Of a stretch of 64,000 bases of DNA, positions 23,336-25,675 are shown piece after piece. Source of the stretch: Bacteroidota bacterium (lineage in GTDB: Bacteria > Bacteroidota > Ignavibacteria > Ignavibacteriales > Ignavibacteriaceae); the NCBI GenBank assembly GCA_023475265.1, contig JAMCWE010000162.1:1-64000 (forward strand). The letters are read 5' to 3'. Position 1 is the stretch's first letter, and every line of letters begins with the position of its first letter. The notes below the pieces were generated by a model. It was not told the origin of the DNA. It made no database searches and saw only the letters and a program-made list of their open reading frames with translations. The position numbers and the translations under genes were made by a program.

Positions 23336-24265
23336 TCACCCAAATAAGATTTTATATCTTTCAGAAATAAGATTAACATATTTTTCTTTCATTTCTTCGG
23401 ATAAAAAACTTTTAGAGATTAACTCATGCCACATATTTATTGAGTCTTTAATTTCATCGCAAATTCTGAAGACTGTTTTTTCATTCATTCCGAGTCTTTC
23501 TTTGCCCCTATAATCGATTAAAATTTTTCTTGAAAGCTTTTTCTTTTTCCCCATTAATGGTAAGGCTATTTCTTCCTGTGGATTTGGTGCGGCAATAGTT
23601 GTATTTATTAAATCGTAAGTAGGAGAGAGTTCAACTTTATGATTCCGTGTTATTAAGGAAAAATTTTTTAAATGCTGGTCTTCATTTCCTATAAGAAAAT
23701 TAAACAGAGTAAGTCGAAATAATTTTACAAATTCAATCACCGGAAACGTACAGTATTGTTTTATTATATCAACTATTTTTTCCATGCTAAAATCATATTT
23801 AGTTTCTCTTGATTTGCCCGCAAGCTGTGCAAAATCTTCCAGAGAATATTTTTTATCTCTGCCATACCTATCAAAGCGTTTAATAAAATAAGTCAGCTTG
23901 CTGTCAATTGAATACACCATCCCGTGTAACGGAACATCAAGCCCAACTGTTTCAGCAAGTTTCATAGTAAGGTCTTCATTTTCCGGAAGCTGAGGATAAA
24001 AATTATTCTGCGGTTTAAGGATAAAGGTACCTCCATTATCGACTATAATGAATGAGCTCTCTTTGAGATTTAATCTTGCGCTCAATTTGGGCTGCACCCC
24101 CTGAATAGACATTTTAACCGCTCTGACAGCAGCTTCCTTTATTTGTTCTTCCTGAGTTAACGGAATATCTTTCAAGTCATTGAGGTTCCGTGATAAAAGC
24201 TTTAATCCTTCCAACGAGTATTTTCTATCACCGCACGGATTATAAGTAATAGGACAAATATTCAT
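23336..24265 (-). CDS. HipT-like serine/threonine kinase toxin (HipA C-terminal type)
   Basis: 309 residues, shorter than full HipA (about 440) because the N-terminal subdomain is on a separate gene. It starts with the MNICPITYNPCG segment seen in this class. The Gly-rich loop reads SIQGVQPKLS at 53-62, where HipT-type kinases carry autophosphorylated serines; only the first Ser of an S-x-S pattern is kept. The catalytic loop is LIGNEDQHLKN (Asp196) and the metal motif SPTYDL (Asp218). Such kinases phosphorylate aminoacyl-tRNA synthetases and stop growth. It overlaps the HipS-like gene by 4 bp. HipBST-type assignment is by gene order and domains. Confidence 0.85.
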   Translation of the reverse strand: MNICPITYNPCGDRKYSLEGLKLLSRNLNDLKDIPLTQEEQIKEAAVRAVKMSIQGVQPKLSARLNLKESSFIIVDNGGTFILKPQNNFYPQLPENEDLTMKLAETVGLDVPLHGMVYSIDSKLTYFIKRFDRYGRDKKYSLEDFAQLAGKSRETKYDFSMEKIVDIIKQYCTFPVIEFVKLFRLTLFNFLIGNEDQHLKNFSLITRNHKVELSPTYDLINTTIAAPNPQEEIALPLMGKKKKLSRKILIDYRGKERLGMNEKTVFRICDEIKDSINMWHELISKSFLSEEMKEKYVNLISERYKILFG

Positions 24266-24579
24266 TCTGCTTCTTCCACTGTTATTGAACCTACGAGATC
24301 CCTGCCTACTAAAATAAGCTGCCCGAATAAATCGTTCTTATCGGTTTTAGTTTGCCGTAATAAGGCTTCAAGCTGAATTCCCTCAGGCAGCAATCCTTCA
24401 AAGAATGGAGGAAAGCTGTTAAATTCATATTCCTTTTTTGATACTACAATTGTCAAAGAAACCGGCGCGTCTTCGTAATCATCTTTATAAATGAATTTAT
24501 AATTTTTAAATTTTTCTATTTCAATCAAGTCACCGGCATATTTACCAAAATTATATACTTTAGCTTTTCTCATTTTCAT
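24262..24579 (-). CDS. HipS-like protein (HipA N-terminal subdomain)
   Basis: 105 residues matching the HipA N-terminal domain alone: KVYNFGKYAGDLIE, then FNSFPPFFEGLLPEGIQLEALLR and LFGQLILVGRDLVGSITV. In the HipBST system the small protein inhibits the kinase, rather than the DNA-binding protein doing so. It overlaps the regulator gene upstream by 20 bp and the kinase gene downstream by 4 bp, so the three are translationally coupled. It is probably the antitoxin. A split of one ancestral hipA gene by frameshift is unlikely given the clean overlaps and the typical kinase start. Confidence 0.83.
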   Translation of the reverse strand: MKMRKAKVYNFGKYAGDLIEIEKFKNYKFIYKDDYEDAPVSLTIVVSKKEYEFNSFPPFFEGLLPEGIQLEALLRQTKTDKNDLFGQLILVGRDLVGSITVEEAE

Positions 24580-24814
24580 TTTCCATTAAATGCATTAACG
24601 GGCTTTCAAGTTTCATTTTTATATTGAGAGCTTTGAATACCTTCAACAAAGTATTTAAGCGGACTGATTCTTTTCCTTTTTCAATATCGAAGACTGCAGT
24701 TTTTCCAACGTCAGCTAAATCTGCTAATTGCTTTTGATTTAACCCGCTTTTAGTACGATGAAATTTCACTGCACGAGCAATTTCTTTAGTAAAATCTATA
24801 TTATTTCCCGCCAT
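24560..24814 (-). CDS. HipB-like XRE-family regulator
   Basis: 84 residues with a Cro/C1-type helix-turn-helix at about 12-70 (KFHRTKSGLNQKQLADLADVGKTAVFDIEKGK as successive blocks). This matches HipB-like and y4mF-type antitoxin regulators. First gene of the three-gene HipBST-like module. The start codon ATG at 24812-24814 sits inside a palindromic operator, so binding of its own product would block expression. Two more copies of the operator lie upstream. The HipB dimer probably also contacts the HipT/HipS complex. Confidence 0.85.
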   Translation of the reverse strand: MAGNNIDFTKEIARAVKFHRTKSGLNQKQLADLADVGKTAVFDIEKGKESVRLNTLLKVFKALNIKMKLESPLMHLMENENEKS

Positions 24815-24822
24815 GGCAGTAA
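24805..24822. promoter_or_regulatory. HipB-type operator O1, over the hipB-like start codon
   Basis: TTCCCGCCATGGCAGTAA matches the perfect palindrome at 24876 in 14 of 18 positions and is itself palindromic in 7 of 9 pairs. It spans the start codon of the XRE gene. Spacing to O2 is 71 bp. Confidence 0.6.
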
Positions 24823-24875
24823 TTTTTATTGTTTTAGAATAAACTTAAATGAAAAATTAGTAAATAGCAAGAATT

Positions 24876-24893
24876 TTACTGCTATAGCAGTAA
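24876..24893. promoter_or_regulatory. HipB-type operator O2, perfect palindrome
   Basis: TTACTGCTATAGCAGTAA is a perfect 18-bp palindrome, centred 71 bp upstream of O1. It is probably the strongest binding site of the XRE regulator and lies in the promoter region of the operon. Confidence 0.75.
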
Positions 24894-24946
24894 GATTTTT
24901 AATCAATGAGCAAAATTTTAAAATTATTAATGTTAATCACAAATAT

Positions 24947-24964
24947 TTACCGCTATTGCAGTAA
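24947..24964. promoter_or_regulatory. HipB-type operator O3
   Basis: TTACCGCTATTGCAGTAA matches O2 in 16 of 18 positions and starts exactly 71 bp from it. It lies just after the stop codon region of the exonuclease gene, the distal edge of the module. Confidence 0.65.
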
Positions 24965-24985: not shown

Positions 24986-25675
24986 TTAGAAATGCAGATA
25001 CTCTTCCCAAATCTTATAGAGTTTGCTGGTTGCTAGAATATCCTGACCGCAGTATACGGCAATGTCTTTTATTCTTCCAGCTTCATAAAGAGTCTTTACT
25101 TCCATACCGGAAATTCCTTTTGACTTGGGAGATTCAATTCCGAACGCATGGCAGTAAAAATCTAAATTGAATTTCCTGGTAATTCCATAAAATGTGAACT
25201 GTTCAAGTAAGTCAATATGAAGAGAAGTGTCGAAGCGGTTGGTCATTAAATTTTTCCTGGGTTTTATTTTATTAAGTGCAGAGCGCATCAATAGAAACGG
25301 CACATCAAAATTTCTTCCATTAAAAGAAATAAACTGATCGGTTTTCTCAGCAATTCGCCAGAAAGATTTGAGCATCTCTTCTTCAGAAAGACCTTTGTAC
25401 TGAACTTCCTTAGTTTCGGAAGTCCATTCTTCCTCATCTTTACTTTCGTAATAAACAAAAGATTTTTCTTTTTGAACATCATAAAATCCAATAGCTATAA
25501 CTTTTGCGGTAAAAGGGTAAAGACTAAGATATCGGATTGCTTCATCAACTTTTTGATCTTTTGTTATATCATCTTTTTCTTTTTCGGCATATCGCAGAAG
25601 GTACTCCTGCTGGCTTTCGGAGAGTGACTCTAATGGGAATGAACTTGTTTCAATATCAAAAACTATCTGGCGCAT
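24986..25675 (-). CDS. Predicted 3'-5' exonuclease, PolB-like (DnaQ superfamily)
   Basis: 229 residues with an RNase H-like exonuclease core: the first acidic motif VFDIETSSFPLE at residues 4-15, the second in FISFNGRNFDVPFLLMR and the third in VYCGQDILATSKLYKIW. These supply the DEDD-type metal ligands. It corresponds to the predicted PolB-like exonuclease family often encoded alone. Last gene in the leftward fatty-acid operon by spacing (22 bp), though its function is probably DNA or RNA processing unrelated to lipid metabolism. Confidence 0.8.
   Translation of the reverse strand: MRQIVFDIETSSFPLESLSESQQEYLLRYAEKEKDDITKDQKVDEAIRYLSLYPFTAKVIAIGFYDVQKEKSFVYYESKDEEEWTSETKEVQYKGLSEEEMLKSFWRIAEKTDQFISFNGRNFDVPFLLMRSALNKIKPRKNLMTNRFDTSLHIDLLEQFTFYGITRKFNLDFYCHAFGIESPKSKGISGMEVKTLYEAGRIKDIAVYCGQDILATSKLYKIWEEYLHF

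Follow-up and report, generated by a model that had tools for sequence, protein, structure and literature searches.

Evenly spaced putative HipB operators upstream of a hipBST operon in an Ignavibacteria-type genome and comparable operator rows in other hipBST families

The window analysed in this study is a stretch of 64,000 nucleotides from a member of the Ignavibacteriaceae (contig JAMCWE010000162.1, positions 1 to 64,000). On its minus strand, an operon of three overlapping frames in the order hipB-hipS-hipT lies 3' of three short inverted-repeat sites, named O1, O2 and O3. The coordinates of the genes, the sites and the DNA between them are listed in Table 1.

Table 1. Genes and upstream features of the hipBST locus in the window.
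Feature	Position	Strand	Description
hipT, predicted 309-aa HipA_C kinase toxin	23336..24265	-	PF07804, 4.8e-46
hipS, 105-aa HipA N-terminal-domain (Couple_hipA) protein	24262..24579	-	PF13657, 1.4e-18; HipS(Lp) 7vkb_B, 5.3e-33
hipB, predicted 84-aa XRE/HTH repressor	24560..24814	-	PF01381, 1.4e-9
Operator O1, 18 bp (putative)	24805..24822	.	TTCCCGCCATGGCAGTAA; 14/18 to the perfect palindrome; over the ATG of the hipB frame; position kept in relatives
Spacer O2-O1, 53 bp	24823..24875	-	Encloses a predicted Bacteroidota-type promoter
Predicted promoter	TTG 24870-24868; TAAGTTTA (TAnnTTTG-like) 24847-24840	-	Predicted from sequence
Operator O2, 18 bp (putative)	24876..24893	.	TTACTGCTATAGCAGTAA; perfect palindrome
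Spacer O3-O2, 53 bp	24894..24946	.	Dissimilar to spacer O2-O1
Operator O3 (putative)	24947..24964	.	TTACCGCTATTGCAGTAA; 16/18; 21 bp from the end of the upstream gene

The hipB product matches the TIGR03070 couple_hipB model at 9.9e-20 (70.3 bits, slightly below the cut-off of 71.65), and the profile of the window's HipB family matches HipB(Lp) (8ezt) at 1.4e-34. The hipT product matches HipT(Lp) (8ezr) at 2.3e-112, aligned over query residues 2-306, and E. coli HipT (7ab4) at 5e-26. HipS-type proteins act as antitoxins in characterised relatives. The gene order, the match of HipS to the HipA N-terminal domain and a HipT without that domain agree with the definition of hipBST. Judged by these similarities, the operon is a complete hipBST, near the Legionella type and far from E. 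coli HipT. The HipT proteins of two other families described below, A and B (L138, L027), carry N-terminal cysteine-rich stretches (CLYC...HDKC; CPGC...CNSC) that resemble small zinc-binding motifs, and the window's HipT reads CPITY..C at that place. A HipT relative with 57% identity to that of the window (NZ_LR134418.1, 258280-259206) is labelled as an lpg2370 family Dot/Icm T4SS effector, which sits badly with the relatives of this HipT in Ignavibacteria-type genomes. A search of phage records for HipT gave no match.

A first-pass annotation had described three 18-bp sites starting at 24805, 24876 and 24947, a perfect palindrome in the middle with the outer sites matching it at 14 and 16 of 18 positions, and the sequence agrees. 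The two start-to-start distances, O1-O2 and O2-O3, are 71 and 71 bp, also as described. The palindromic 18-mer occurs at ≤3 mismatches in two places in the window, O2 and O3 (shuffles, 0.01); O1 has 4 mismatches to the palindrome and falls outside this count. In the whole 4.77-Mb genome, O2 and O3 are the only places with ≤2 mismatches, and 3 mismatches are found at 8 places elsewhere (2 for a reversed control pattern). Of these other places with 3 mismatches, two were compared with reading frames, one (L004) being within a 195-aa frame and the other (L003) in no frame of at least 70 aa. The intervening DNA had been said not to be repeated, and this holds: across 86 arrays from the window and related loci, the two spacers of one array share an in-register identity of 0.373, compared with 0.332 after shuffling.

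The O2-O1 spacer contains a TTG and a TAnnTTTG-like element, which we take to follow the Bacteroidota-type promoter consensus. In 21 Ignavibacteria-type loci, the TT of the TTG and the TAnnTT are 60-80% majority letters in the same register, and the TTG / TAnnTT pair keeps a fixed register between O2 and O1 in the window's relatives. The O3-O2 spacer has no comparable conserved promoter-like pair. O1 spans the start ATG of the 84-aa hipB frame, in line with the first-pass annotation. In three loci of the same genus (L007, L008, L009), the ATG lies 15 nt downstream of that of the window, 4-5 nt past O1, at a position occupied by ATA in the window. Of the 109 loci, 4 (the window, L014, L095 and L147) have an in-frame ATG within O1; the overlap is uncommon, though not unique to the window. 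On the 5' side of O3, a predicted gene for a PolB-like 3'-5' exonuclease (24986-25675; PF10108) lies on the operon's strand and ends 21 bp from O3. In L008 and L009, the DNA before O3 resembles the end of this predicted gene.

Upstream DNA of related loci was scanned with a position matrix trained on 12 sites from six of the scanned loci. The first scan covered 85 loci, namely the best 80 of 190 relatives and 5 others. The widened set comprised 179 loci (not counting the four pattern-hit loci and E. coli), of which 175 had a HipB profile match and 148 were unique; 121 of these scored at least 70, and 109 were retained after dropping loci with more than 25% shared 12-mers or short upstream DNA. 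The matrix cut-off for a site was 6 in the first scan and in a looser scan, and 8 in the 109-locus scan. The first-pass annotation had named absence of the sites and spacing from close relatives with the same hip genes as grounds for rejecting its reading. Four same-genus and three same-family hipBST loci have a spacing of 70-71 bp (71/71, 70/71 or 71/70), as do most distant ones. A same-family hipB locus without hipS (L015) has 87/66. That check therefore came out in favour of the first-pass annotation, whose assignment of the sites as HipB-type operators before hipBST is supported.

Among the 109 loci, three sites were found in 88, two in 13, four in 3, five in 1, one in 2 and none in 2. These sites define 202 gaps, 148 of them at 70-73 bp (mean 71.14) and 37 at 60-62 bp (mean 61.08), the remaining ones being 31-32 (5), 38-41 (7), 66, 87, 114, 138 and 144 bp. 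A spacing of 70-73 or 60-62 bp is present in 96/109 non-redundant loci, consecutive gaps differ by ≤1 bp in 88/97 pairs, and no array mixes 61 and 71 steps. The length of O3-O2 is kept almost as tightly as that of O2-O1. In 1090 trials with shuffled upstream DNA, one site was found in 22 and two sites never. A motif-free count of lags between similar palindromes gave 178, compared with a shuffle mean of 4, with peaks at 70-72, 61-62 and the doubles of these. Between loci with 53-bp O2-O1 spacers, the median identity is 0.36 for the spacer and 0.78 for O2 (1176 pairs). The length of the spacing, rather than the spacer DNA, is conserved, and over great distances.

In a tree of HipB and HipS with 105 rows, built by a quick method and with many weak branches, 77 rows belong to the 71 class, 19 to the 61 class and 4 to a 31/41 class, with 5 unclassified, and two changes of spacing class suffice. 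The 31/41 arrays mix steps in one row (L164: 41, 41, 31, 41; L160: 41, 31, 38; L074: 31, 40). L164 has five operators 5' of hipB, one of which overlaps the 17-bp spacer between TTGACA and TATAAT. Among the loci listed, the labelled hosts are Ignavibacteriota, Bacteroidota, Pseudomonadota (including named Legionella strains), Thermodesulfobacteriota and Spirochaetota, and many are metagenome bins. The two Spirochaetota loci (L052, L061) come from one metagenome bin and L052 groups with Ignavibacteria-type rows, so binning error or transfer is possible. The distance from the end of O1 to the ATG is 22-25 nt in 13 Legionella loci and 1-8 nt in the 23 others listed, with like spacings in both. The row thus shifts against the start codon at constant spacing, which argues against promoter or start-codon geometry as the cause, and promoter geometry is unlikely to be what fixes the spacing.

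Families A and B repeat this layout, at 40-41 bp and 60-62 bp respectively, with unrelated operator sequences. Family A comprises 34 distinct loci, 30 with split hipS, and its operators resemble TATACCCGAAAAGGTATA. Three sites were found in 26 of these loci, four in 5 and two in 3; 68/70 gaps measure 39-42 bp and 33/36 consecutive gap pairs agree within 1 bp. In family B, whose operators are AGTGCA..TGCACT- or ATCACA..TGTGAT-like, lags of 60-62 bp occur in 17/22 loci, and 5/22 lack a classifiable spacing.

For an operator-blind sample, all PF13657 matches at E 1e-8 were collected from 61 genomes in the class, giving 16 loci with a short frame (split hipS) and 7 with fused hipA. All split-hipS loci (16/16) have pairs of palindromes separated by 38-41, 60-61 or 71-73 bp or by sums of these, although L238, L239 and L242 show sums only and several give a single pair and no full row; in shuffles of these loci, any pair appeared in 7/320. 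Ten of the 16 lie in genomes already matched by the earlier HipB search, and six (L233, L234, L235, L237, L238 and L241) are new. An even row occurs in 1/7 fused hipA loci, L236, with steps of 49 and 50 bp; the other fused loci gave 27 (L253), 54 (L246), 69/41 (L248) and 113 bp (L254), and none in L250 and L255. The row of L236 consists of three similar TGATACCGATCGGTATCA-type palindromes, and its step is absent from the gap lists of the window's family and family A. A set of 27 XRE loci scoring <70 (26 with enough upstream DNA) had been considered as negative controls and was set aside: 13/27 are hipBST loci of other HipB families, with spacings of their own (40 and 61). They are therefore an unclean control, and the fused hipA loci, seven in number, are the cleaner one. 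The HipB families covered are that of the window, A and B.

Split hipS is present in 105/109 loci of the window's HipB family; 96/105 have the 61 or 71 spacing and 5/105 are unclassifiable. The four loci without hipS are L015 (87/66), L167 and L172 (32 each) and L129, in which no site passed the cut-off. With the cut-off lowered to 6, L129 shows two weak sites 69 bp apart. L167 and L172 are close relatives, and their 32-bp pair is near the 31/41 class. The contrast in 61/71 spacing between loci with hipS (96/105) and without (0/4), which was noticed after the fact, has a hypergeometric probability of ~1e-4, or ~0.004 when the weak 69-bp pair of L129 is counted. In family A, the steps persist at hipB loci that lack a recognisable hipS (L199, 41/41/40; L200, 40/41; L202, a 41-bp pair), which indicates that an even row needs no adjacent hipS, unless the losses are recent. 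L199 may have lost hipS recently, because a locus from its own genus, L203, carries the gene along with the same row. In L202, a second XRE gene and a long frame follow downstream, and L204 has a short, odd hipS-like frame.

When each lineage contributed one spacing (41, 40.5, 61, 61 and 71 bp), the best helical repeat was 10.10 bp, with a vector strength of 0.995. In a Monte Carlo comparison with random spacings and a free repeat, p was 0.0002, and 0.003 with one 61-bp lineage omitted; because the lineages are few, the fit is good, not overwhelming. The gaps of E. coli K-12 hipBA (28/39/28) agree less well with the helical series. With 10.5 bp to the turn, 71 bp makes 6.76 turns and 61 bp makes 5.81, short of a whole number by about a quarter and a fifth of a turn, respectively. 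For the sites to share one face, the DNA in the complex would need a curved path or a repeat close to 10.1 bp per turn. The distance of 71 bp is by itself no ground for placing the sites on nearly the same face, as the first-pass annotation did; this placement becomes plausible only through the comparison of lineages.

The array is real and conserved and hence very probably functional. With modest confidence, we favour the reading that the three sites are operators of HipB, acting as autorepressor of its hipBST operon, and that complexes on neighbouring operators bridge at a fixed geometry. The spacing is probably under selection, the likely cause being that such complexes meet in a fixed geometry. 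HipB dimers carrying HipT-HipS would sit at a set distance and angle on successive operators. Neighbouring complexes would touch and lock a higher-order repressed promoter, with the DNA between them bending or looping, and in the window the predicted promoter core inside the O2-O1 interval would be trapped there. The HipT kinase would be kept in an inactive assembly on the DNA, and derepression would turn sharp once HipS or HipB falls.

HipT-HipS is our favoured candidate for the contact between operators, and the evidence for it is mixed. In E. coli O127, as described in the accessible part of the report, leaky hipBST or hipBT repressed the promoter, whereas hipB alone needed high-level expression (PMC10627512), which suggests that HipT strengthens repression. 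HipS corresponds to the HipA N-terminal subdomain, according to the available text of another study (PMC8262856). These two points, the pairing of HipA on neighbouring E. coli operators described below and the fact that 61/71 rows accompany hipS in the window's family support the contact; the weak 69-bp pair of L129 and the family A rows without hipS weaken it. In published relatives from Legionella, as far as the accessible account goes, the complex of HipB and DNA also takes up HipT, whether or not HipS is present. Gel shifts with Legionella HipB alone are compatible with a HipT-dependent bridge and do not demand one. The even row of the fused hipBA locus L236 (50/49) and the sites 69 and 41 bp apart in the fused locus L248 count against bridging, as do the fractional turns of 71 and 61 bp, the loci with unclassifiable spacing and the poorer helical fit of E. 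coli K-12 hipBA.

Other explanations were weighed against the bridged assembly. The three sites could be independent HipB operators giving graded, non-cooperative repression, with the spacing kept for some other reason such as avoiding factors or promoter layout. This has a real but minor share of our belief. The Legionella gel shifts, in the accessible portion of that paper, fit three sites filled separately and without visible difference in affinity, and were read by the authors as allowing intermediate occupancy, unlike the cooperative E. coli HipB (PMC10653801); both points agree with independent sites. On this reading, though, an exact spacing is unneeded, yet O3-O2 is nearly as conserved as O2-O1 and the row moves against the start codon between clades while the spacing stays. 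The same gel shifts bear on the first-pass annotation, whose view that the spacing matters functionally stands, while its suggestion of cooperative or looped repression is not borne out by them. It is unlikely that HipB alone sets the spacing, by DNA bending or direct contact of dimers, with HipS-HipT riding along. The three family A loci with even rows and no hipS would suit such a role, as would the tracking of spacing class with HipB family. However, HipB is small (84 aa in the window) and a gap of 53 bp seems long for direct contact, no 61/71 row passes the threshold at orphan hipB loci of the window's family, and Legionella HipB by itself is not reported as cooperative in the available sections of the study (PMC10653801).

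The remaining explanations concern how the row arose or what else could impose its step. If a 71-bp unit had been duplicated in tandem, with the operators retained and the spacers decaying, equal spacing would result, and the slightly raised in-register identity of the spacers (0.373, compared with 0.332 after shuffling) could be accounted for. Spacer identity is nevertheless near background while lengths stay within 1-2 bp across several phyla, and class changes arrive as whole arrays of 61 or stepped 31/41. Duplication is a possible origin that leaves the maintenance unexplained, and as the explanation of the row it is improbable. RNA polymerase might dictate the spacing if a 53-bp gap just fits a promoter, and a promoter-like pair does lie in the O2-O1 gap of the window and its relatives. 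We regard this as very improbable; the O3-O2 gap is equally long without a comparable conserved pair, O1 of Legionella lies over the predicted promoter (PMC10653801), and the 40-41-bp families leave gaps of 22-23 bp. A chance likeness of palindromes can hardly be credited, even though the intergenic DNA is AT-rich, in view of the shuffle controls, the motif-free lags, and the conservation in relatives and in family A rows.

The array of the window alone is ordinary, because its layout has already been published for Legionella; what appears new is the generality of evenly spaced, helically stepped rows across hipBST families. No report of evenly spaced HipB operators outside Legionella was found in the accessible open-licence literature, which does not prove that there is none. 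The array serves as an entry to a testable rule on hipBST operator rows, which we put forward tentatively, with belief and doubt nearly balanced. The rule states that hipBST operons in general would be controlled by a ruler in which operators, mostly three to a row, recur every 40-41, 60-62 or 70-73 bp (in rare cases in 31/41 steps), with one value per lineage and turns of ~10.1 bp. The repressor complex would read distance and phase and build a higher-order assembly for repression and kinase sequestration on the promoter. The conserved, helically stepped rows suggest a single assembly in which repressor, kinase toxin, antitoxin and DNA are held in a fixed geometry. Holding the toxin on promoter DNA might tune growth arrest.

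Among known systems, E. coli K-12 hipBA likewise has several palindromic HipB operators 5' of an autoregulated hip operon. It differs in having four TATCCN8GGATA sites (at -134, -106, -67 and -39, with gaps of 28/39/28 bp) and a fused HipA, and the sites of the window do not read TATCC..GGATA. HipA molecules on neighbouring E. coli operators reportedly pair through N-subdomain-1, in work attributed to Schumacher in 2015. Binding to the four operators is cooperative, according to the accessible part of the published account (PMC3376134). The picture of a two-operator E. coli hipBA is ruled out by the four sites in K-12 DNA. The first-pass annotation had placed the window beyond such a two-operator layout, a claim of novelty that fails, as three operators are also published for Legionella (PMC10653801). 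The HipBST system of E. coli O127 shares the gene order and the split HipA with the window, and its HipB represses its own promoter in the part of the report available (PMC10627512), but its HipT is distant from that of the window (5e-26). Operator motifs of the Legionella type are reported as absent from E. coli O127, as far as the accessible text of the Legionella study extends (PMC10653801).

The relation of spacing to helical phase recalls the lac operon. Lac loops are formed by bridging through the repressor tetramer. In the available portion of one study, repression by short lac loops depends on helical phase at spacings of 57.5-155.5 bp, with fitted in-vivo repeats of 10.95-11.60 bp (PMC1762422). 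For hipBST, a comparable phase dependence is suggested by the comparison of spacings; the fitted repeats of 10.95-11.60 bp differ from the 10.1 bp for hipBST spacings. No paper on a specific lac spacing optimum was found in the open-licence literature.

The closest counterpart is the HipBST system of Legionella, whose HipB, HipS and HipT are the nearest solved relatives of the window's proteins. In Legionella species, three 18-nt operators with 53-bp gaps are each bound by HipB (PMC10653801), which corresponds to 71 bp from start to start (18 + 53). In Legionella, O1 covers the predicted promoter and lies 24 nt 5' of the ATG (PMC10653801); in the window, the predicted promoter sits in the O2-O1 spacer and O1 overlaps the ATG. 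The host of the window belongs to a different phylum from Legionella; common to both is a row of three 18-nt inverted repeats, separated by 53 bp, ahead of hipBST.
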